Shown: piece by piece, positions 2,005-29,250 of the stretch
How the letters are laid out: the number at the start of each line of letters is the position of its first letter
Position numbering within the stretch: the first letter of the stretch is position 1
DNA from: an uncultured Clostridia bacterium
Lineage (GTDB): Bacteria; Bacillota; Clostridia; TANB77; CAG-508
Reading direction: 5' to 3'
DNA: 45,720 nt
Assembly: GCA_947589015.1 (NCBI GenBank)
Contig: CANPZF010000014.1
Span: 1-45,720, forward strand
Made by a program: the position numbers and the translations under genes
Notes under the pieces: model-generated
What the model was told of the DNA's origin: nothing
The model's input: the letters and a program-made list of their open reading frames with translations, nothing else
Databases searched by the model: none

Positions 2005-4038
2005 TTATTTTCCTAATATAATTCTAAATACTTCTGCTACACTCCATGCTTGTGCTATAGTTCCTTTACATAATTGTGGCTTTCTAGAATCATATAATTC
2101 TGATATATTTCCAATACATCCATTATAGTATAATTCTTGTTTAAATGTTTTTTCTGTTTTATTTCTAAATTTCTCTATTTTTTCCTTTATTTCTTCTTTT
2201 TCCTGCTTATTCTTTGTTACTTTTAACTGATTTTTTAAAGTATTATAATATAGTCCTAATAGCCATGGCCATGTAATACCTTGATGATAGCTTTTATCTC
2301 TTTTTTCACTATCACCTTCATATACTTCGACATAGTCTTCTTCACCTTTTGCTAAAGTTTTTAGTCCATAATTGTTTAATAATTTTTTCTCTACTGTATT
2401 AATTGTATTTTTAGCAGTTTCTGATTGTAAATCTACTATCGGATATGTTAAACTAAATGCAAATAATTGATTTGGTCTTATTTTTCCATCTCCTATTACA
2501 TCATATAAACATTTTTTTCTTTTATTGTAAAATTTATTGTTAAATGATATTTTACAGTTTTTAGCTAATTGTTTATATTTTTTTTCATTACGTTTTTCAC
2601 CTATTTTAGCAATTAATGTTGCCATAATCATATTAGCATTATACCACATACTATTTATTTCCACAGCTTTTCCATTACGTGGAGTTATTGCTATTCCTGC
2701 ATATTTTGCATCCATCCATGTATTTTGTGTATATTCAGTACCAGATACTATTAAACCATCTTCGTCTAAATAAATATTATTATCGTCAACATTTATTCCT
2801 TTACAATAGTTTTCTATAATTTCTTCTAACTTTTCATATAAATTTTCTTTTATGAATTTATAATCTCCTGTATATTCAATATATTTTTGTACTTGCTCAA
2901 ATAAGAGTAATGAAGCATCAACACTATTATACAATGGCCTATTATCATATCCTGAATATCCATTAGGTACTAAGCCAAATTTAATATCCCTTGTCATAGT
3001 AAGTAATACTTCTCGAGCTATTTCAAATCTCTTTGTAACTAACAAAAGTCCTTCAAAAGCTATTAATGTATCACGTCCCCAATCTAAAAACCAAGGAAAT
3101 CCAGCTATAATTGTGTGTAATCTAAAATTTGGTCTATATGCAATAAAATTGTCTGTTGCAATTAAGAATTCTCTTATCATACTGTCTCTTTCTAATTCTT
3201 TTTGCGTTTTTTCTTTTCCTAAATCTATTAAAAGTGATTTATTAAATAATTCTCCTAAACGTATAATTTCTTCATTTATCATTTTTTTAACGTTTATTTG
3301 TTCTATATTTTCTTCTAAAGAGCATACAAATGATATTTCCTTTTCTTGCCTTGGTTCTATATCTATTTCAAATCTACCAGTAACTATATGGTTTTCTTGT
3401 GGATAAAATCCTCTTTTTTGTTCTTCTAAATAAAACATATTATAAAATATATCGTTTTTATGTTCAATATAAATTCCTTCTGATATATTCATATATATTG
3501 GTATTTCAGAATTTCCATCAACTATTAATTTTACTTTATTGTTATTTATATTTTGTCTTAACTCAAATTTGTGATCTGCATTAACTGCATGAAAATCCCT
3601 AAAATTTACTATTGGTGCTAATGTTAATTTAGCTTTCTTCTCTCCACCAGTTATCTTATAATACACACCTACTGTATTTTTTCCATATTGCATAGATATC
3701 ATTTTTGTTATTTTTATATCATCTACTTTATATGTAAAAATAGGTACATATATCTTTTTAAATTCTTCTTGATATTTAAAACCTTCTGAAACATAACCAT
3801 TACAAATATTTGTATACAGCTCATGTTTTTTTCCTTCTATTTCAATACTTTCATCTAATTTTGAAAGTATTAAAAATCTTCTAGCTGGTGGTGTTAATGG
3901 AGCTATCAATAATCCATGATATCTTCTTGTATTTGCTCCTATTATTGTAGATGAGCTATATCCTCCTATTCCATTAGTTATAAGCCATTCCTTCTTTAGT
4001 GCTTCTTCTAAACTTAAATTTTCCTTGGTAAATTCCAT
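2005..4038 (-). CDS. Amylo-alpha-1,6-glucosidase (glycogen debranching enzyme type)
   Basis: Glycoside hydrolase of the bacterial/archaeal glycogen-debranching type, expected to hydrolyse alpha-1,6 branch points of glycogen-like glucan in the cytoplasm. An N-terminal GDE_N domain (ITNGIGGYSSSTIIGANTRR, then YHGLLIA) is followed by the (alpha/alpha)6 catalytic domain with FPWFLDWGRDTLIAFEG (about residue 325) and HQGITWPWLLGLYY (about 590), both family signatures. The longer frame begins at 4050, but GGAGG followed by five bases points to the ATG at 4038, giving 677 residues. It follows the YvcK-like gene by about 15 bases, so the two are probably co-transcribed. A link between glycogen use and YvcK-dependent control of carbon and wall metabolism is attractive but inferred. 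Confidence 0.9.
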   Translation of the reverse strand: MEFTKENLSLEEALKKEWLITNGIGGYSSSTIIGANTRRYHGLLIAPLTPPARRFLILSKLDESIEIEGKKHELYTNICNGYVSEGFKYQEEFKKIYVPIFTYKVDDIKITKMISMQYGKNTVGVYYKITGGEKKAKLTLAPIVNFRDFHAVNADHKFELRQNINNNKVKLIVDGNSEIPIYMNISEGIYIEHKNDIFYNMFYLEEQKRGFYPQENHIVTGRFEIDIEPRQEKEISFVCSLEENIEQINVKKMINEEIIRLGELFNKSLLIDLGKEKTQKELERDSMIREFLIATDNFIAYRPNFRLHTIIAGFPWFLDWGRDTLIAFEGLLLVTKRFEIAREVLLTMTRDIKFGLVPNGYSGYDNRPLYNSVDASLLLFEQVQKYIEYTGDYKFIKENLYEKLEEIIENYCKGINVDDNNIYLDEDGLIVSGTEYTQNTWMDAKYAGIAITPRNGKAVEINSMWYNANMIMATLIAKIGEKRNEKKYKQLAKNCKISFNNKFYNKRKKCLYDVIGDGKIRPNQLFAFSLTYPIVDLQSETAKNTINTVEKKLLNNYGLKTLAKGEEDYVEVYEGDSEKRDKSYHQGITWPWLLGLYYNTLKNQLKVTKNKQEKEEIKEKIEKFRNKTEKTFKQELYYNGCIGNISELYDSRKPQLCKGTIAQAWSVAEVFRIILGK

Positions 4039-4053
4039 TTTCTCCTCCATTTT

Positions 4054-7766: not shown

Positions 7767-8693
7767 ATGACTTTTTTATTAATTTTACTTGTTATCATAT
7801 TAGTGATAGCATTTATGTCTATTAAAATTGTTAAACAATCTGAGGTGTACATAATTGAAAGATTAGGAAAATTTTATAAAGTTGCTGATGCTGGTCTTAC
7901 AATAATTGTTCCATTTTTTGACCATGTAAGAAGTGTTGTAAGTCTTAAACAACAAACAATGGACGTTCCACCTCAAGGAGTTATTACAAAAGATAATGTT
8001 ACAATTACTATAGATACTGTTGTTTTTTATCAAATAACAGATCCTGCAAAAGCAGTTTATGAAATTCAAAGTTTAAAGAAAGGTATTGAATATCTAGCAA
8101 TTACAACTATTCGTGATATTATAGGTAAAATGGATTTAGATGAAACATTTAGTTCTAGAGATAGTATTAATGATAAACTACGAGTTGTATTAGATGAAGC
8201 AACAGATAGATGGGGATGTAAAATAGATCGAGTTGAAATTAAAGATATTACTCCTCCTGCGGATATTAGAGATGCTATGGAAAAAGAAATGAATGCAGAA
8301 AGAAATAAAAGAGCTTTAATTCTTGAAGCTGAAGCTCAAAGGCAATCTGCAATAACAATTGCTGAAGGTAAAAAACAAGCTGCTATTCTTGAGGCTGAAG
8401 CTGACAGTGAATCCAAAATTAGAAGAGCTAGTGGTGAAGCTAAAGCTATAAAAGAAGTAGCAGAAGCTAAAGCTAAAGAAATTGAAATGGTTTATGATGC
8501 AATGAAAAAGGCTGATCCTAACGATAAATTAGTTCAATTAAAATCTTTAGAAGCTTTAGAAGAAGTTGCTAAAGGAGATGCTAATAAAGTATTTATTCCT
8601 TTTGAAGCAACAAGTGCTTTAAGTAGTTTAGGTGCTATGAAAGAAATTGTTAAAGAAGATAAAAAGAAAGATTTTCATGATAATAAGAAGTAA
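7767..8693 (+). CDS. SPFH/band 7 domain protein (stomatin/QmcA-like)
   Basis: Membrane-anchored SPFH-domain protein, expected to oligomerise at the inner face of membrane microdomains. One N-terminal membrane segment (about 4-20) is followed by the SPFH domain with the family signatures VKQSEVYIIERLGKF, QQTMDVPPQGVITKDNVT and VEIKDITPP. A long Ala/Glu/Lys-rich coiled coil (about 170-250, AEAQRQSAITIAEGKKQAAI) follows. AAAGGAGG precedes the ATG, and a hairpin terminator follows immediately. It lies 34 bases after the NfeD-like gene and forms an operon with it. Confidence 0.9.
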   Translation: MTFLLILLVIILVIAFMSIKIVKQSEVYIIERLGKFYKVADAGLTIIVPFFDHVRSVVSLKQQTMDVPPQGVITKDNVTITIDTVVFYQITDPAKAVYEIQSLKKGIEYLAITTIRDIIGKMDLDETFSSRDSINDKLRVVLDEATDRWGCKIDRVEIKDITPPADIRDAMEKEMNAERNKRALILEAEAQRQSAITIAEGKKQAAILEAEADSESKIRRASGEAKAIKEVAEAKAKEIEMVYDAMKKADPNDKLVQLKSLEALEEVAKGDANKVFIPFEATSALSSLGAMKEIVKEDKKKDFHDNKK

Positions 8694-8700
8694 AAATAAA

Positions 8701-8725
8701 AATCCTTCAGCTAATCTGAAGGATT
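8701..8725. terminator. Bidirectional terminator
   Basis: Perfect 10-base stem (8701-8710 with 8716-8725) and a five-base loop, flanked by A-rich sequence on the left and a T tract on the right, so it can serve both the SPFH gene (plus) and the small gene ending at 8734 (minus). Confidence 0.88.
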
Positions 8726-8733
8726 TTTATTTT

Positions 8734-9066
8734 TTAATTAGATGCCCATCTAAGCATTTTTATATCTTTGTATTTGTTTAATACTTCTTTATATTTTCCA
8801 TATTCTTCTTCCCACAATTCATCTGGAACTTTATCAAATGCAATAAATACTCTTTCTGCTTCTGATAAATAAATAATTTGTTCTTGCGGTGTCATTTTTT
8901 CATACTGTTTTGCAAATTTGTATAATTTATCTAATATCTGGTTAGCTTCAATAAAGCTCCAAAAATCTTTTATCTTTATTCCAAATAATTTAATTTGTAC
9001 TACCGCATATGCTATCAATGCAAATATTACCAATAATAATATATATATAACTGCAAGTACTACCAT
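8734..9066 (-). CDS. Small single-span membrane protein, unknown function
   Basis: A 110-residue protein not recognised beyond its layout: one N-terminal transmembrane helix (about 3-25, MVVLAVIYILLLVIFALIAY) and an acidic, helical cytoplasmic part (YEKMTPQEQIIYLSEAERVF and following). A GAGGTGGTAAG-type site precedes the ATG, and the bidirectional terminator lies just after the stop. It appears to be a single-gene unit. Codon use resembles its neighbours. Confidence 0.6.
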   Translation of the reverse strand: MVVLAVIYILLLVIFALIAYAVVQIKLFGIKIKDFWSFIEANQILDKLYKFAKQYEKMTPQEQIIYLSEAERVFIAFDKVPDELWEEEYGKYKEVLNKYKDIKMLRWASN

Positions 9067-9141
9067 TTATCTTACCACCTCTTTAGTTTTTTATAAGTTA
9101 ATTATACCATAAATGTAATATTTTTGTAAATACACCTATAT

Positions 9142-9161
9142 TTTAAGTTTCGGTATTTTTT
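9142..9161 (-). repeat. Copy of a short intergenic motif AAAAATACCGAAACT
   Basis: On the minus strand this reads AAAAAATACCGAAACTTAAA. Related copies lie at 57-76 (plus strand, one change) and 21114-21128 (minus strand, 15 identical bases). All three are intergenic. The function is not known. Confidence 0.4.
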
Positions 9162-9198
9162 GTATCTTTAAAACTTCTCTCTTTTTATTCTACATATT

Positions 9199-10113
9199 TT
9201 ACAGTTTGTCCAAAAATTTTTTCTTTATACTATAAGACGAATGTACATATCTATTTAAAGTAATATTTACATCAGAATGTCCTAATAATTCACTTAAAGA
9301 TTTTGCATCCATACCAATTTTTATACAATTACTTGCAAAAGTGTGCCTAAGTACATGAAAATTATAATTCTGAATATTACATAAATTAAGAATTTTTTTA
9401 TAAAAAGCATAATAATTACGAGGTTCAAAAATCTTTGTAGTTCCTGTTAAAAAATACATCTCATCACTTATATTATTTATTTGTTTTAGCTTTTTTAAAA
9501 TATGCATTAATTTATTTGATATTGGAATTTTTCTAGTAGAACTGTCTGTTTTAGGTTCTCCTATTTGCATTTCAGTTTTATTCTTACCTTTATAAATACG
9601 CTGAACTGTCTTATTAACTACAATTATTTTTTCTTTTAAATTTATATCTTTCCATTTTAAACAACAGATTTCTCCTATTCTTAATCCTGTATTTAAACAA
9701 ATTACTATACCTATATATCTTGCATTATGTGTATTTACGCAAAATTTTTCAAGCTTTTCTATCTCTCGCTCATTTAATATTTTTGTTTCTTTTTTTTTCT
9801 GTTTAGGAATAGCTATTAAATTTAAATTATAATTCGTATTATAATTTGTATTTATATATTTTAATATAGATTTAAATACTATCACTATATCAGAAACTGT
9901 TTTGGATGATAAATTTTTTGATAAATATTCAACATATTTATTGAAATCATAATTTTCAAAAAAAGAAACTTTTTTTCCTTTAAAATATGAATTTATATAT
10001 TTATTAACAATATAATTATATCTATAATAAGTAGATTGCTTTATAGAAAATTTTTTATATAAAAGCCATTTTTCTGTTACATTGCTAAATAATGTTTTTC
10101 TTAAAAAAAACAT
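9199..10113 (-). CDS. Tyrosine recombinase (phage integrase family)
   Basis: Site-specific DNA recombinase. An N-terminal SAM-like DNA-binding domain (about 10-90) precedes the catalytic domain with the expected residues: Arg145 in NTGLRIGEI, the KT..STRKIPI beta hairpin, His253 and Arg256 in HVLRHTFASN, His279 in LLGHSDVNITLN and the nucleophile Tyr289 in RYVHSS (numbering from the ATG at 10113). The frame is open from a GTG at 10122, but GAGGTG six bases before the ATG at 10113 fits better, giving 304 residues. No excisionase, phage or conjugation gene is adjacent, and terminators isolate it, so it is an orphan integrase or a chromosomal recombinase. It looks intact. Confidence 0.9.
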   Translation of the reverse strand: MFFLRKTLFSNVTEKWLLYKKFSIKQSTYYRYNYIVNKYINSYFKGKKVSFFENYDFNKYVEYLSKNLSSKTVSDIVIVFKSILKYINTNYNTNYNLNLIAIPKQKKKETKILNEREIEKLEKFCVNTHNARYIGIVICLNTGLRIGEICCLKWKDINLKEKIIVVNKTVQRIYKGKNKTEMQIGEPKTDSSTRKIPISNKLMHILKKLKQINNISDEMYFLTGTTKIFEPRNYYAFYKKILNLCNIQNYNFHVLRHTFASNCIKIGMDAKSLSELLGHSDVNITLNRYVHSSYSIKKKFLDKL

Positions 10114-10164
10114 TCTAATCACCTCATTTTATTAATATTTAATATTTTTTAGGTATAAAAAAAA

Positions 10165-10184
10165 CCTATCATTTTACTGATAGG
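10165..10184 (-). terminator. Terminator of the sortase operon
   Basis: Seven-base perfect stem (10165-10171 with 10178-10184) followed on the minus strand by eight T residues. It lies 15 bases after the stop of the membrane protein at 10199. Confidence 0.85.
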
Positions 10185-10198
10185 CTCCTAAATAATAT

Positions 10199-11041
10199 TT
10201 ATTTTTCTCTTCTTGCTTTTTTAGTCTGTGTTTTAATATTTCCAATTAAAATTGCTACTATTCCAATAGCTAATAAAATACTTCCATATGTCAACATATT
10301 ATCTAACATATAATTTAAAATACTTTTTATAGAATTTGATATTGAATTATTTAAAACAAGTAAATTAGAAACTTTAATATTAGAAGTTAGATATATTTTT
10401 ACAATAATATAAAATACACCAGTTGTTACAAGTGAAATTCCAATATTAGCTATTGCTTCTAATAATGTCTTACAATTATATATAAATATTAATATAACAC
10501 ATACAATTACAGCTATAATTAATATTCCTTTAACTTTTTCAATAATATTTTCTACTTTAGTAATAACATTATGTATAGTTTCTTCATAATTTGTGTGTGA
10601 CAAAGTTTCTTTATATTGTTCTACTATTTTTTCAACAAATTGATTTATTGCATTTTGCTGGGTTACATTTAATTTTTGATTATTTAATGATGTATTTATG
10701 TTATTTTTTAAGCTTGTTTCTATTGTTTCTGTATTAATAGTAATATTCTCACCATCATAAATATTATCTATAATAATATTTGTATCTTGTTTTATCTGCT
10801 CAACTGAAATAATGTTTTTAATAACATTTTCATCCAATCCTGATTGACCAATATAATTTTCAAAATTCGATTCAATTTCTTTTTTTATTTCTTCATAATA
10901 ATTTGTATCCTCTAATTTTCCTAAAACAAATTGTTTTTTTAAGATTGTAGTAGAAATTATATTTATAGCTACTAATCCTATTATACAACATGCTAATAAC
11001 ATAACTGTAATATATTTAATTATATTTAATAAAACTTTCAT
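10199..11041 (-). CDS. Multi-span membrane protein of the sortase operon, unknown function
   Basis: A 280-residue protein of unrecognised family. It has an N-terminal membrane helix (about 7-32), a long hydrophilic helical region (about 38-165, rich in Glu, Asn and Ile, probably outside the cell), and three further membrane helices (about 170-190, 193-217, 248-268) ending in a basic tail. GGGAG precedes the ATG. It starts 13 bases after the sortase stop, and the operon terminator follows, so it is the third gene of the LAYTG protein-sortase unit. A role in presenting the substrate or in the sortase complex is possible but inferred. Confidence 0.6.
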   Translation of the reverse strand: MKVLLNIIKYITVMLLACCIIGLVAINIISTTILKKQFVLGKLEDTNYYEEIKKEIESNFENYIGQSGLDENVIKNIISVEQIKQDTNIIIDNIYDGENITINTETIETSLKNNINTSLNNQKLNVTQQNAINQFVEKIVEQYKETLSHTNYEETIHNVITKVENIIEKVKGILIIAVIVCVILIFIYNCKTLLEAIANIGISLVTTGVFYIIVKIYLTSNIKVSNLLVLNNSISNSIKSILNYMLDNMLTYGSILLAIGIVAILIGNIKTQTKKARREK

Positions 11042-11054
11042 AACTGCTCCCTTC

Positions 11055-11666
11055 TTATTCTTCTAATTCGGCATATACAACATATCTTTGTGTTGCATAT
11101 CCAATGTTATTAAATGGATAACATGTATATACCATTAATATTTCTTTTTCTTGTTGAATTGGAAGCTTTTCTGTCTCAGTTTCTTTTACTAATTGCATGT
11201 CATAAATTTTGTAATTATATTCTCCATATGTTGTTGTTACTTTTATTTCATTACCTTTTTGAAGTTCAGAAAACCTACGAAATACATTTTGAGAATTGTG
11301 TCCCATATAAATAATAGATCCACCCTCTCCTGGAAAATAACTACCACTTGAATGTCCTACTCCTTTTTTTAATATTTCAAGCGTATCCCCAAAATATACT
11401 GGTAAATTTACATTGATTTTAGGAATTTGTATTGTAGCATATTGAGTTCCATATTCAGGATAAGTTTGTAATTTTTTACTTGAAGTATCAATCTCTATTG
11501 GTTCTTGTTTAAATACTGAATCTTTTTTAATTGCTACTTGATTTATTAACAGTACAGTTTCTTCTATCTTCTGCCCTAAAGATAAATAGATTCCTCCTAT
11601 TATAATTATAACCATTAATAAAGCAACTATTATATCTATAATAGTTGCTCTCATCATTTTTAACAT
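11055..11666 (-). CDS. Sortase, class D-like
   Basis: Membrane-anchored transpeptidase that cuts an LPXTG-like signal and links the protein to the wall or to another subunit. One N-terminal membrane helix (7-29), then the sortase beta barrel with His123 (IIYMGHNSQ), Cys182 (MVYTCYPF) and Arg194 (ATQRYVVYAE), the full catalytic triad. The 203-residue length and the TCYPFN.IG..TQRYVV end resemble class D enzymes. GGAG precedes the ATG. The gene directly upstream encodes a protein with a LAYTG sorting signal, its likely dedicated substrate. Confidence 0.92.
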   Translation of the reverse strand: MLKMMRATIIDIIVALLMVIIIIGGIYLSLGQKIEETVLLINQVAIKKDSVFKQEPIEIDTSSKKLQTYPEYGTQYATIQIPKINVNLPVYFGDTLEILKKGVGHSSGSYFPGEGGSIIYMGHNSQNVFRRFSELQKGNEIKVTTTYGEYNYKIYDMQLVKETETEKLPIQQEKEILMVYTCYPFNNIGYATQRYVVYAELEE

Positions 11667-11670
11667 TTAA

Positions 11671-12195
11671 TTATGCTCCAACTTTAGCAAATTTTGTTTT
11701 AGCAACAACTATTGTAGCTAGGGCAATTACTGCTATTGAAGAAGCAACTAAAATTACACTGCTGTTTCCAGTATAAGCTAAACTTCCATTATTTGCCATT
11801 GAAACAGTTTCTACTAATTTACCTTCATTATCGTAAACTTTAACTGATCCATTTTCAAATGTTAATGAATAACCTATTGTATTTGCAGCTTCTTGTGCTA
11901 ATGTTTGAATTTCACTTTTTGATTCAGATGATAATTTTCTAAAATCAGTAACGTTGTCTCTTTCCATAACTTGTACGGCTTCATCAACTTTGCTTAGTAT
12001 TACATTAGCTTTTTCTTCTGTTATATCTTTTACATGTCTTTCTATTCTTACTTTGTCTGAGCTTGACATTCCATATGATGATAATTTTTTATAAATTTCA
12101 TCAGCTAATGTTGCTCCTGTTACTGCTTTTACTCCTGTCAATACTAATGTTACTAATATTACAAATAATACTGCAATTGTTAATGTTTTCTTCAT
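11671..12195 (-). CDS. Surface protein with LAYTG sorting signal (probable sortase substrate)
   Basis: Predicted exported protein of 174 residues. It has an N-terminal signal segment (MKKTLTIAVLFVILVTLVLT), a helical charged middle with repeated Glu/Ser, and a C-terminal sorting signal: LAYTG at residues 139-143, a hydrophobic stretch and a basic end (KTKFAKVGA). Ala in place of Pro is unusual for an LPXTG signal. The frame extends upstream to 12261, but AAAGGAAG six bases before the ATG at 12195 and the signal peptide fix the start. Four bases separate it from the sortase. The fold of the middle part is not recognised. Confidence 0.75.
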   Translation of the reverse strand: MKKTLTIAVLFVILVTLVLTGVKAVTGATLADEIYKKLSSYGMSSSDKVRIERHVKDITEEKANVILSKVDEAVQVMERDNVTDFRKLSSESKSEIQTLAQEAANTIGYSLTFENGSVKVYDNEGKLVETVSMANNGSLAYTGNSSVILVASSIAVIALATIVVAKTKFAKVGA

Positions 12196-12229
12196 CTCAC
12201 ATCTTCCTTTCTTTAATTTTATATTACAT

Positions 12230-12258
12230 ATTATAACCTTAATAAAAAATTTTTTCAA
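12230..12258 (-). promoter_or_regulatory. Promoter of the LAYTG-sortase operon
   Basis: TTGAAA (12258-12253), 17-base spacer, TATAAT (12235-12230) on the minus strand, 35 bases before the start codon at 12195. Confidence 0.72.
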
Positions 12259-12321
12259 CAATTTTACAAATTTTTTTTATTTTTTGTGTATTTTTTTAAT
12301 ATGTGATTTTATTCTGTATTT

Positions 12322-24977: not shown

Positions 24978-25226
24978 AACCATTCCATCCTTAATAGGAC
25001 GAAATGGTTATCTTCCGTGGTACCACCTAATTTTATTAGTTTATAACTAATCTCTTGATAGTTTTAACGGTTCAACCGCTCTTTCCTACTATTTTTTCAG
25101 AAAAAGACCTAAAAAGTGAAATTTCTATATAAAGATATTTAATGACTTCCAGCCTTGGTCATTTTCTCTATTAAATATTTTTTCTTTATATTTACTTTGC
25201 TTTTTAATAGGTTTTATTTATTTGTA
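24978..25226 (-). promoter_or_regulatory. T-box leader controlling pheS-pheT, Phe specifier UUC
   Basis: tRNA-sensing leader that permits transcription when uncharged tRNA-Phe binds. On the minus strand the T-box core AGGTGGTACCACGG is at 25028-25015. The terminator hairpin is 25009-24978 (arms AACCATTTCGTCC and GGATGGAATGGTT, then a T run). Upstream is a long stem I with a candidate specifier codon TTC (25120-25118) followed by A, as is usual after a specifier. It lies between promoter and pheS. Phe specificity fits the gene. Confidence 0.92.
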
Positions 25227-25363: not shown

Positions 25364-26140
25364 TTATTTAATGTCTTTATGTTTTATATATTTTCTATAA
25401 AATATGATTGAAAGAATTATTGCAATGATTATAAATGTAACAATCACAATAGAAATTTCTCCTGTTTTGGGCAAAACACTTGGAGATTTCGATGAACTTA
25501 TATTATTTGAATTCACCGTATTATTTTTTATTTCTAGTCCTGCTGAATTTGTAGAATTTCCATTTACTTGTTTATTTGTATCATCTTTTTCTGTATTATC
25601 TTTCTTTATATCATCTTTCTTTATATCATCTTCTTTTTCGTCATCTTTTTTTTCGTCATCTTTTTGGGTGTCATCTATTACTGTAATTTCTAGTTTTTTT
25701 GATGATATTGTAACTTCTGAATCAGTTTGTGCGTCAGTATCTAATAAAATATCATTTGTTTCAATTTTTAAAGTACTTCCAACAGTTACATTGTCTTTTA
25801 CTTTAAATTTAAGAACATAAATATCTGCATTTTTTATACTTTGTGTAGAATTACAAATTACTGTTATATTGGGTGATGTTCCTATACTACTCCAATTAGA
25901 AGAATCAGCTACATTCTCACTAATCAATTCTAATTTTTCCGAATCATAAGTATATCTTGTATCTATTCCATTTATACCTTCTTCACTTGTTGCAGATAAT
26001 GTCACAGTAAATATTTCACCTTTTTTTACTTGAGTAACATTTGATTTTAATTCAACTGCTCCTGTAGCTGCAAAAGTTACAGATGTAAATAATATTATAA
26101 ACATTGCAATTATACCTGTACTAATAATTTTATTTTTCAA
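25364..26140 (-). CDS. Cohesin-domain surface protein with LPKTG wall anchor
   Basis: Exported wall protein of 258 residues. Signal peptide (about 1-24), a cohesin-like beta-sandwich (about 27-160; KSNVTQVKKGEIFTVTLSAT, then GINGIDTRYTYDSEKLELIS and ADIYVLKFKVK, the typical cohesin strand pattern), a Lys/Asp linker of repeated KDD units, an Asn/Ser stalk, then LPKTG at 223-227, a hydrophobic segment and a basic tail. The start codon is TTG, with AGGAGG about eight bases before it. It follows the dockerin protein gene by 36 bases. One cohesin means one docking place, so it is a minimal wall-linked receptor for dockerin proteins. Confidence 0.82.
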   Translation of the reverse strand: MKNKIISTGIIAMFIILFTSVTFAATGAVELKSNVTQVKKGEIFTVTLSATSEEGINGIDTRYTYDSEKLELISENVADSSNWSSIGTSPNITVICNSTQSIKNADIYVLKFKVKDNVTVGSTLKIETNDILLDTDAQTDSEVTISSKKLEITVIDDTQKDDEKKDDEKEDDIKKDDIKKDNTEKDDTNKQVNGNSTNSAGLEIKNNTVNSNNISSSKSPSVLPKTGEISIVIVTFIIIAIILSIIFYRKYIKHKDIK

Positions 26141-26176
26141 TTCTTTATCCTCCTTATAAAAATGTTTATAAATTAA

Positions 26177-29125
26177 TTATAGTGTATTAATTTTTCCTAA
26201 TCTAAATTTATTTATTTGCAATACATCTTTTAAATCTACTTGATTATCTTGATTTACATCTCCTGCTAGTAAATATTCATCTTTCAATAGAGCCTTATTT
26301 AGTCTATGTTTATTAATTGATAATATATCTCTTAAATTTGATTCGCCATCTCCATCTGTATCTCCTTTTACAACTATTGTAAATTCAAGATTTTCACTAT
26401 TTAAGGATATCTTTAATTTCATACCAGATGCTATTTTTACGTTATTGTCTGTAGTTTCTTTGTTGTCATTGCTATATACAGTCATTTTTCCATTTGTTTT
26501 TATTTTTTTTAGTATATTTCCTAATGTTGTACTAGGATTAATATTGCATATATATTTATTTCCATCCGTATTAACTTCGTTATATCCTTCAAAATTTGTT
26601 TCTAGTTTTGTTACTGTTATTGCTTGAGTTGTAGTTTTTGTTACACCATTTTCGGTATAGCTTATAGTTACATTTGTTTTTCCTACCATTAAATTATTTC
26701 CATCAGTTATTGTGTAGGTTGTTACTTCTTTTTTAGTGCCATTATCATATGTAGCCATTATTATCATTCCTGATTTATCAAAATTTTGACCTTCTGTATA
26801 TGTCATTTTATCTGGTACTTTTGTTACTGATATACCAGTTAATTTCTTTTCACTTACGATTATATCCTGTGTTGTAGTTTTTGTTACACCATTTTCGGTA
26901 TAACTTATAGTTACATTTGTTTTTCCTACTGTTAAATTACTGCCATCTGTTATTGTATAATCTGTTACTTCTTGTGATGTATTGTTATTATAACTAGCAG
27001 TAATTTTCATTCCTGCAGAATCAAAGTTTTGTCCTTCAATATATGTTGTTTTACTTGGAACAGTTGATACTCTTATACTACTCAATACTTTTTGATTTAC
27101 TGTTACTGCTTGAGTTACTGTTTTTGTTACTCCGTTTTCAGTATAGCTTATAGTTACATTTGTTTTTTCCACTGTTAAATTATTTCCATCAGTTATTGTG
27201 TAGGTTGTTACTTCTTTTGTAGTGCCATTATCATATGTGGCTGTTATTATCATTCCTGATTTATCAAAATTTTGACCTTCTGTATATGTCGTTTTATCTG
27301 GTACTTTTGTTACTGATATACCAGTTAATTTCTTTTCACTTACGGTTATATCCTGTGTTGCAGTTTTTGTTACACCATTTTCGGTATAACTTATAGTTAC
27401 ATTTGTTTTTCCTACTGTTAAATTACTACCATCTGTTATTGTATAATCTGTTACTTCTTGTGATGTATTGTCATTATAACTAGCAGTAACTTTCATTCCT
27501 GTAGAATCAAAGTTTTGACCTTCTATATATGTTGTTTTGTTTGGTTCTGTTGTTATTGCTATACCAGTCATAATTGGTGTTATATCAAATTTTTTTGTAC
27601 TATTCGCATTCATTACATTTCCAGCTGCATCAGATGCACCACTGATTGTAATTGTTTGCGTTCCACTTTTATTTGGTATAGCATAACTGTATGTATACAC
27701 TATATCACTACTTTTAGTCATTACTGTTTCTGCCAATGTTGATATTCCACTCATTGATATTTTAGGAGTTGTATCTCTTACTGCTTCACTGAATGTTGCT
27801 GTTATTATAGCTGTTTCTCCCGCTTTATATGTTGATTTGTCAGTTGTTACAGTTGCTGTTGGTGCTGTTCTATCTATATTATTTATATTTACTGTTACTG
27901 TTGACTCATTTCCAACTAAATCTTTTATTTTTAGTTGCTCACTTGTTGTATTATTTGTGAATGTTGCTATTATTGAATTATTATTTGTAGTAGAAACATA
28001 ATTCCAAGTTCTATTATCTGATACTATTTTTTGTATTGGCTCATCTGCACTAATTGTTACATCAACATTCCCTTGAGTTGCTTGCGTTAATGAATATACT
28101 GGCGATTGTAAAGATGGTTTTGTATCATCTAAATTTACATTTATACTTTTATTTATTGCATGTTGGTGTGCAGTTGAATTTGATTTAGTAGTTATAGTCA
28201 ATTTACTACATTTCTCAAATGGAATATTACCTATCTTCGTTACACTATCAGGTATTATTACACTTGTTAAATTACTACAATCGTGAAAGGTATAGTCTCC
28301 TATGCTAGTTACACTTCCTGGGATAGTTATTGTAGTTAGATTGCTACACATAGCAAATGACGAACCTTCTATTTCAGTTACACTATATGGTATATTTACT
28401 TGTGTTAGATTGCTACATGTATAAAAGGCATATTGGTTTATATTTGTTACACCATCAGGAATGGTAAAAGTTGTTCCTTCCTTTCCAGCCGGATAACAAA
28501 TTATTCTTGTCATCTCTTTGTTATATAAAACCCCATCATTGTTATTATTTGTATATTTTGAATTATCATTATCAACTGTTATTGAAACTAAACTTGTACA
28601 GCCACCAAAGGCAGAATCATCTATAAATGAAATATTTTTTGATATATTTATTTGTTTCAAACTACTACAACCATCAAATGCACAAAACTTTATTCTTATT
28701 ACGCTGTCAGGTATGGTTATATTTTCTAGACTACTACAATTTTGAAACATCATATATGATATTTCTTCAATATTGTCTGAAAGCGTAATACTAGTTAATT
28801 TACTACATTCTTGAAATGCATTTAAACCTATATTAGTTACACTATTTGGTACAATCACTTTAGTTACACTACTGCAATCCCTAAAAGCCATAGATTCTAT
28901 ATGTGTAACTGAATACCCATCTATTAAGCTTGGAATTGTCACAGTGGATTGATCACCTAAATATTTTGTTATTTTTGCATAATTTTCCTGCACACTATAT
29001 TCAAACGAGCCATCTTCTGTTGTTGCAGCATAAGTTTTTGGACTTGCTAAAATACTAATAATTATAGATAATACTATTACAATTAACATTGCCATTAACA
29101 TTATTTTTTTTATCTTTATATTCAT
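26177..29125 (-). CDS. BspA-like LRR / Ig-repeat surface protein with C-terminal dockerin
   Basis: Large exported protein (982 residues). Signal peptide (about 1-33), then BspA-type leucine-rich repeats (about 60-330; repeated CSSLTSI, TIPDSV and AF..CS patterns), two Ig-like domains (about 340-510), four group 3-like bacterial Ig repeats (about 515-840, each with TYTEGQNFD and TISYTENGVTKT), and a C-terminal dockerin (about 918-982). The dockerin has two calcium-loop halves, DTDGDGESNLRDILSINK and DVNQDNQVDLKDVLQINK. There is no wall anchor of its own. AGGAGG precedes the ATG. It should be displayed through the cohesin protein encoded next; LRR domains of this type are known as adhesins. Confidence 0.87.
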   Translation of the reverse strand: MNIKIKKIMLMAMLIVIVLSIIISILASPKTYAATTEDGSFEYSVQENYAKITKYLGDQSTVTIPSLIDGYSVTHIESMAFRDCSSVTKVIVPNSVTNIGLNAFQECSKLTSITLSDNIEEISYMMFQNCSSLENITIPDSVIRIKFCAFDGCSSLKQINISKNISFIDDSAFGGCTSLVSITVDNDNSKYTNNNNDGVLYNKEMTRIICYPAGKEGTTFTIPDGVTNINQYAFYTCSNLTQVNIPYSVTEIEGSSFAMCSNLTTITIPGSVTSIGDYTFHDCSNLTSVIIPDSVTKIGNIPFEKCSKLTITTKSNSTAHQHAINKSINVNLDDTKPSLQSPVYSLTQATQGNVDVTISADEPIQKIVSDNRTWNYVSTTNNNSIIATFTNNTTSEQLKIKDLVGNESTVTVNINNIDRTAPTATVTTDKSTYKAGETAIITATFSEAVRDTTPKISMSGISTLAETVMTKSSDIVYTYSYAIPNKSGTQTITISGASDAAGNVMNANSTKKFDITPIMTGIAITTEPNKTTYIEGQNFDSTGMKVTASYNDNTSQEVTDYTITDGSNLTVGKTNVTISYTENGVTKTATQDITVSEKKLTGISVTKVPDKTTYTEGQNFDKSGMIITATYDNGTTKEVTTYTITDGNNLTVEKTNVTISYTENGVTKTVTQAVTVNQKVLSSIRVSTVPSKTTYIEGQNFDSAGMKITASYNNNTSQEVTDYTITDGSNLTVGKTNVTISYTENGVTKTTTQDIIVSEKKLTGISVTKVPDKMTYTEGQNFDKSGMIIMATYDNGTKKEVTTYTITDGNNLMVGKTNVTISYTENGVTKTTTQAITVTKLETNFEGYNEVNTDGNKYICNINPSTTLGNILKKIKTNGKMTVYSNDNKETTDNNVKIASGMKLKISLNSENLEFTIVVKGDTDGDGESNLRDILSINKHRLNKALLKDEYLLAGDVNQDNQVDLKDVLQINKFRLGKINTL
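26605..27565 (-). repeat. Near-identical internal repeats (A-B-A'-B') in the Ig region
   Basis: Four Ig-type units of about 79 codons arranged as two copies of a pair (unit of about 475 bases). Units 1 and 3 share YIEGQNFDS.GMK.TASYN; units 2 and 4 share YTEGQNFDKSGMII.ATYDNGT. DNA similarity is high, which points to a recent duplication. Confidence 0.8.
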
Positions 29126-29181
29126 GAAAAGTTCCTCCTAAACAATTCAATATTTTATATATTTTTCATATTTCTAAAATC

Positions 29182-29208
29182 ATTATAACATATTTCGAAA
29201 AATAGCAA
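29182..29208 (-). promoter_or_regulatory. Possible promoter of the dockerin-cohesin operon
   Basis: TATAAT (29187-29182) on the minus strand with TTGCTA (29208-29203) 15 bases upstream. It overlaps the terminator hairpin of the preceding unit. The -35 part and its spacing are weak. Confidence 0.4.
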
Positions 29209-29250
29209 TATAAATCATGTACAAAATACATGATTTATATTGCTATTTTT
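29198..29250 (-). terminator. Strong terminator upstream of the dockerin gene
   Basis: Perfect 24-base stem (29198-29221 with 29227-29250) and a five-base loop. The minus strand continues with TTTTT. It ends the unit that closes with the MBL hydrolase. The stem is much longer than a typical terminator. Confidence 0.8.

Follow-up and report, generated by a model that had tools for sequence, protein, structure and literature searches.

A putative two-gene dockerin–cohesin cassette for surface display in an uncultured Clostridia bacterium

The two-gene locus

Cohesin–dockerin pairs have been studied mainly as parts of cellulosomes. Here we describe two adjacent genes of an uncultured Clostridia bacterium (GTDB lineage Bacteria; Bacillota; Clostridia; TANB77; CAG-508), located in a 45,720-nucleotide (nt) stretch of DNA (contig CANPZF010000014.1 of assembly GCA_947589015.1; hereafter, the window), which probably form a self-contained surface-display cassette, with a dockerin clipping a leucine-rich repeat (LRR)/immunoglobulin (Ig)-like protein onto a cohesin-LPKTG wall anchor. 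Both open reading frames (ORFs) are on the minus strand in head-to-tail order, and all features of the pair given below are on that strand. The first gene (26177..29125), preceded by an AGGAGG ribosome-binding site (29134..29139), encodes a 982-residue payload protein made up of a signal peptide, an LRR_5 region (best stretch residues 74-191; 28553..28906), a Big_12 Ig-like domain (residues 418-510; 27596..27874), four Big_3 Ig-like repeats (26561..27550, the outer end being approximate and placed from the sequence; best stretch residues 526-595), an X-like segment delimited by alignments and a structural model (about residues 862-917; 26375..26542), and, directly after it, a dockerin (residues 920-973; 26207..26368) with two calcium-loop repeats ending in RDILSINKHRL and KDVLQINKFRL. 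The second gene (25364..26140) starts with TTG and encodes a 258-residue protein with a signal peptide, one cohesin domain (residues 27-154; 25679..26062, of which the Pfam match covers 25691-26038), a charged stalk rich in K, D, E, N, and S (residues 155-222; 25475..25678), the sorting motif LPKTG (residues 223-227; 25460..25474), a hydrophobic stretch, and a basic end. The gap between the genes is 36 nt and contains a separate AGGAGG for the cohesin gene (26149..26154), and a pattern scan listed no terminator-like site there. The same scan found a terminator-like hairpin 3' of the pair (24978..25009) and a 20-pair hairpin, terminator-like on both strands, 5' of it (29203..29245). The two genes are probably co-transcribed.

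The domain assignments agree with the original prediction, which had described an LRR/Ig protein without a wall anchor but with a two-loop C-terminal dockerin, followed by a gene for a signal peptide, one cohesin-like domain, a charged stalk, and LPKTG. The payload protein matches LRR_5 with 182.1 bits and has an N-terminal hydrophobic signal, as expected for a BspA-type LRR surface protein; motif and hydrophobicity scans found neither an LPXTG-type motif nor a hydrophobic window beyond the signal peptide. In its dockerin, aspartate or asparagine (D/N) occupies 10 of the 10 tested loop positions (1, 3, 5, 9, and 12 of both repeats, which we take to be the calcium-loop positions). The Pfam Cohesin search proposed for the second protein gave a match above the cut-off (PF00963, residues 35-150, 33 bits in hmmscan against 24.1; 36 bits when the whole genome was searched), and the NCBIfam LPXTG_anchor model scored 19.2 bits (cut-off 15.9). 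A fold search placed the domain within the cohesin fold, the top structural matches being non-cellulosomal cohesins of Clostridium perfringens. A sequence search of solved structures with the same protein listed no cohesin, its six weak matches falling mainly on the stalk.

From these features, a mechanism can be proposed in which the 982-residue protein would be secreted without an anchor of its own, a sortase would link the cohesin protein to the wall through LPKTG, and the dockerin would dock on the wall cohesin in a calcium-dependent manner, thereby displaying the LRR protein, whose LRR region may serve in adhesion.

Conservation, covariation, and payload exchange in relatives

The cohesin is widespread in the lineage, with matches in 120 of the 145 genomes of the window's family (38 of 39 genera) and in 142 of the 191 genomes of the order, where four families are represented among those listed. 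Gene order was studied in 64 regions, namely 60 around listed cohesin matches (taken in order of strength, with three weaker matches of the window's genus added), the window, and three regions of the genome that contains the window (G000; 1.65 Mb in 52 contigs, 95.65% complete; C-numbers alone denote its contigs). This sample is biased to strong cohesin matches and keeps near relatives (L067-L069 are near copies); gene calling followed a simple longest-ORF rule, and cohesins and dockerins were detected with profiles built in this analysis. A same-strand dockerin gene lies directly upstream of 44 of the 85 cohesin genes, with a median gap of about 40 nt including the stop codon. For 12 of them a dockerin gene lies directly downstream (four have one on both sides), and for 29, with both neighbours visible, neither is a dockerin gene. 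The 44 paired proteins resemble those of the window: the last dockerin stops 3-10 residues from the C-terminus in 42, and none carries a sorting motif. Their cohesin partners end in a hydrophobic segment in 39 cases, 29 of these with a motif of relaxed LPxTG pattern; the others are four proteins bearing both a cohesin and a dockerin (Coh-Doc) and one with neither feature. In alignments, X-like segments similar to that of the window precede many of the paired dockerins.

Dockerin and cohesin similarities were found to covary across the 44 pairs (r=0.757; 2000 permutations gave a mean of 0.004 and a highest value of 0.239), and likewise when only between-genus pairs were considered (r=0.735; highest permutation 0.307). 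In order to remove the shared ancestry of whole genomes, partner swaps were confined to the ten genomes with at least two pairs; these swaps gave a mean r of 0.529, and 27 of 5000 matched or beat the observed value. In the 12 same-genome comparisons r was 0.656, equalled in 37 of 2000 permutations. For 31 of the 44 pairs, the cohesin attached to the nearest other-genus dockerin was among the top six. All this fits with adjacent genes that would keep a matched specificity. An AlphaFold2 model of the contiguous DNA from dockerin to cohesin, read through one stop, had a mean predicted local distance difference test score (pLDDT) of 89.1 and a predicted template-modelling score (pTM) of 0.81, with a disordered linker and the X-like segment (model residues 1-55) at pLDDT 95-98; a control chain bearing a cohesin and a dockerin of its own, presumably not partners, reached 91.8 and 0.68, respectively. 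The alignment for the model was made without whole-protein homologues, whose inclusion slid the last dockerin helix into the linker (2 of 26 rows aligned).

The proteins carried by the dockerins are far more variable. Among the 44 pairs, the closest outside-genus dockerin and the closest outside-genus cohesin to those of the window belong to the same pair of genome G002, and its payload is NPCBM plus F5/8C. Within the genus, the window cohesin has a match in 54 of 97 genomes, and the nine best matches from other genomes were taken. At six of these nine loci a dockerin ORF lies directly upstream, in five of the six with INKHRL/INKYRL repeats like those of the window. The payloads of this window type comprise NPCBM/F5-8C (G251 and G274), Flg_new/Big_3 (G310), and a transglutaminase-like protein (G288); in G302 a 78-residue ORF bears the dockerin, and the 334-residue ORF in front of it, which has no Pfam match, runs off the contig; G312, likewise truncated by the contig end, has a variant repeat motif behind Big_3. 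Loss of the calcium-loop residues in homologues, which would have spoken against docking, was not seen: nine window-type dockerins have D/N in 87 of 90 loop positions, with G046 counted out of register owing to a one-residue insertion. A Pfam scan (E 0.001) of 44 proteins (42 paired ones, leaving out the two LRR proteins of G000, and two Coh-Doc proteins) found, among the best 25 of 42 families, Dockerin_1 in 38, F5/8C in 11, NPCBM in 11, Transglut_core in 10, Lectin_like in 7, Peptidase_C1 in 6, and LRR_8 in 3; six dockerins therefore rest on the profile built in this analysis. No glycoside hydrolase (GH) catalytic family appeared in per-protein scans of 19 distinct proteins, one of which had no match at all; a rare GH payload may still occur among the 17 families beyond those listed. 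Since varied payloads sit on one docking type, what recurs is the display module and not the LRR payload. In two large payloads (L070:5533-10413 and L085:5671-10299), an N-terminal NPCBM domain is separated from F5/8C, near residue 1000, by about 700 residues that have no Pfam match at the same threshold.

More elaborate arrangements were also observed. In L117, L084, L103, and L097, multi-gene arrays contain Coh-Doc proteins between payload-dockerin proteins and anchor cohesins, and the payloads of L061, L065, L075, and L097 contain an internal cohesin that shares 26-34% identity with the anchor cohesin. The arrays and internal cohesins suggest tiered surface complexes. Cohesins occur in the family on giant proteins as well, as seen from matches within open frames of more than 4000 residues (G070:C9 and G082:C28).

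Other docking genes of the genome and competing explanations

In G000, the Cohesin search gave four matches, each in its own ORF (three above the cut-off, that on C12 below it), and dockerin matches were obtained in seven ORFs, a weak one on C28 being below the cut-off. Three of the four cohesin genes (window, C26, and C12) adjoin a dockerin gene, for which random placement gives a probability of about 1-2e-5 on the assumption of eight dockerin genes, one above the number found. The C26 pair consists of an LRR_5/Big/dockerin gene followed by a cohesin-LPKAG gene; its cohesin domain is 84% identical to that of the window (63% over the whole cohesin protein), and its dockerin scores 30.9 bits against Dockerin_1. 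This pair (L015:4293-8222) adjoins a gene judged by eye to be serine-recombinase-like (8650-9975), a hint of possible cassette mobility. The C12 operon (L014:4315-8941) encodes a sortase, a cohesin-LPQTG protein, and a 1072-residue protein with a dockerin near its N-terminus; this sortase is possibly dedicated to a cohesin anchor. The cohesin-then-dockerin order of C12 is also found in G133 (L091). No dockerin gene adjoins that of the fourth cohesin (C4, LPYAG). There are ten sortase-domain ORFs in G000, one of them in the window (11055..11666, minus strand), which could possibly act on LPKTG. In the window, this sortase gene stands in a row (9199-12261) with a phage-type integrase gene and two genes that match no Pfam family; the row may be a small mobile island.

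Several observations weigh against a self-contained cassette. Firstly, 41 of the 85 cohesin genes (two at a region end), that of C4 included, have no dockerin gene directly upstream, so that some partners are encoded elsewhere, and an upstream dockerin is likewise missing at three of the nine loci that had been selected through their cohesin (G303, G288 C22, and G279). Secondly, in 13 of the 44 pairs the nearest other-genus dockerin comes with a cohesin that is ranked ninth or lower. Thirdly, the search of the payload tail against Dockerin_1 (PF00404), proposed in the original prediction, was equivocal: residues 920-973 reached 22.5 bits in hmmscan, 0.4 bits below the cut-off of 22.9, although a six-frame search gave 27.9 bits. 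In addition, the pTM contrast is that of one model with one control, the control having a different and shallower alignment (53 vs 26 rows). Finally, other dockerin proteins of G000 could compete for the window cohesin.

This last point leads to the strongest of the alternatives, which we regard as possible but distinctly less likely than the cassette, namely that the cohesin acts as a shared receptor in the wall, to which several dockerin proteins of the cell bind in a small complex similar to a ScaE hub, with the LRR protein as only one client. Candidate clients are encoded on C1, C5, C11, C12, C26, and, weakly, C28, and the Coh-Doc adaptors and multi-gene arrays of relatives (e.g., L117 and L084) would be in line with such a receptor. 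Five of these proteins besides that of the window have been typed: LRR on C26, fn3 below the cut-off on C12, Big_2 on C1, M60 peptidase with fn3 and F5/8C on C5, and a Glucosaminidase match below the cut-off on C11 (19.3 vs 30.2). However, the INKHRL/INKFRL pattern of the recognition helices is missing from the aligned dockerins of C1, C5, C11, and C12, and within genomes the docking similarity follows the adjacent partner. The C26 pair is of the same docking type, and exchange between it and the window pair is therefore likely. As for the setting of two of these proteins, the 568-residue one of C11 (L017:4781-8073), with its weak glucosaminidase match and C-terminal dockerin, is encoded ahead of a membrane protein of 521 residues which has cadherin-like domains and whose N-terminal part may be a very divergent cohesin; that of C5 (L018:2343-8468) has 2041 residues and an internal dockerin, and no cohesin gene was recognised among the ORFs listed alongside.

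An origin as the remnant of an ancestral cellulosome after enzyme loss is improbable. A sortase-anchored single cohesin is indeed the design of ScaE, and the dockerin proteins of Ruminococcus flavefaciens include LRR, transglutaminase-like, and peptidase payloads (PMC2930009, PMC3573020; papers cited by PMC number are represented here by excerpts). On the other hand, GH9 is present in 1 of the 145 family genomes (two controls positive) and has no match in G000; the top fold matches are the C. perfringens non-cellulosomal cohesins, although a fold match leaves ancestry unsettled; and the broad occurrence across the family, with its conserved gene order and its specific covariation, is unlike decay. 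Other cellulosome hallmarks were likewise not found: Pfam Cellulase (GH5), searched in G000, gave no match there with six positive controls; GH48 had none in the 145 family genomes, a weak negative given that no control gave a signal; and G000 has no multi-cohesin scaffoldin among its four cohesin matches, no dockerin-bearing cellulase of GH5 or GH9, and, in the six of seven dockerin ORFs typed (all but the weak one of C28), no glycoside hydrolase over the cut-off. From the scaffoldins and dockerin ORFs of this genome, the window cohesin does not appear to anchor a cellulosome. The original statement that no glycoside hydrolase or carbohydrate-binding gene is near has to be amended, as the window contains a glycogen debranching enzyme gene (2005..4050), but this lies about 21 kb from the pair with no visible link to it. 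With adjacency, covariation, and the scarcity of GH9, the reading of the pair as a non-cellulosomal display system, put forward in the original prediction, gains support. That the two genes are unrelated neighbours, the cohesin-like domain serving as an Ig-like spacer on a wall protein and the tail as an end cap that binds calcium, would suit the modest Pfam scores of both domains and is very improbable in view of the conserved adjacency, the near-constant C-terminal position of the dockerin, the covariation, and the payload exchange.

The cassette reading of the window pair thus remains preferred, and in it the dockerin of the window would bind the cohesin of the window in the presence of calcium. 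Its extension to the family is held with somewhat less confidence, yet we favour it: a non-cellulosomal surface socket in the form of a two-gene cassette, whose docking pair and anchor would be kept and whose payload would be exchanged, with Coh-Doc adaptors in places giving tiered complexes. Payloads would then be LRR/Ig, NPCBM-F5/8C, transglutaminase-like, and Flg_new/Big_3 proteins in the window type, and in other types also papain plus lectin.

Relation to known systems and significance

The closest precedent is the CttA/ScaE system of R. flavefaciens together with the LRR-dockerin proteins of this bacterium. ScaE, which has one cohesin and an LPXTG motif and is attached by sortase, holds ScaB, CttA, and, according to results cited as unpublished, a peptidase-like protein by means of X-dockerins (PMC2930009, PMC4081043, PMC3573020). 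The window anchor has the single cohesin and LPXTG sorting signal by which the ScaE type is defined in PMC2930009; CttA is a non-enzymatic partner with a C-terminal X-dockerin, and cttA is listed directly before scaE. In contrast, ScaE also bears an entire cellulosome and CttA is a cellulose-binding protein, whereas the payload of the window is LRR/Ig and its genome lacks GH5 and GH9 matches; moreover, the best structural matches of the window cohesin are others than ScaE, whose cohesin (2zf9) ranks 33 in Foldseek, although a shared cohesin type is possible. R. flavefaciens also has LRR-dockerin (SIGN-LRR-Doc) and transglutaminase-like-dockerin proteins, with such a region followed by a dockerin as in the window (PMC2930009), but they belong to a cellulosome-producing cell, and the excerpt lists no cohesin-anchor gene of its own beside each. 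Since ScaE holds CttA, LRR-dockerin proteins exist, and cttA precedes scaE, the working principle was already known.

Other non-cellulosomal cohesins have been reported. Among those of C. perfringens (2vo8 of a GH33, 2jh2, and 2w1n of GH84C), 2vo8 and 2w1n are, according to their entry titles, borne on an enzyme, and that of the window is on a wall anchor. For anaerobic methanotrophic (ANME) archaea and syntrophic sulfate reducers, cohesin/dockerin roles at the surface or in adhesion have been proposed (PMC9012536, PMC10553843); the attachment proposed for ANME is of the S-layer type, and these excerpts describe no two-gene LPXTG cassette. Another example is Lachnoclostridium sp. MSJ-17, 'scaffoldin-containing' and presumed non-cellulolytic, with single-cohesin proteins, two of them with C-terminal transmembrane helices (PMC11557425, the excerpt of which describes neither partner genes nor cassette organisation). 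A gut X-dockerin:cohesin complex has been reported to bind in a force-resistant manner (PMC7456326), a property which, by analogy, would suit a surface socket.

What differs here is the absence of those cellulosome hallmarks that were tested, together with the one-payload-one-anchor operon, the spread through a family, and the payload exchange; a search of the open-access literature, limited to titles and abstract openings among the entries listed, found no description of such cassettes in these bacteria. If the reading is true, cohesin–dockerin docking would be an ordinary display route for large surface proteins in a family nearly without GH9, with a small constant anchor and a varying payload. 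The family would also offer many natural matched docking pairs for specificity work and for surface-display tools, and gene order alone would predict the large surface-displayed proteins of a species.

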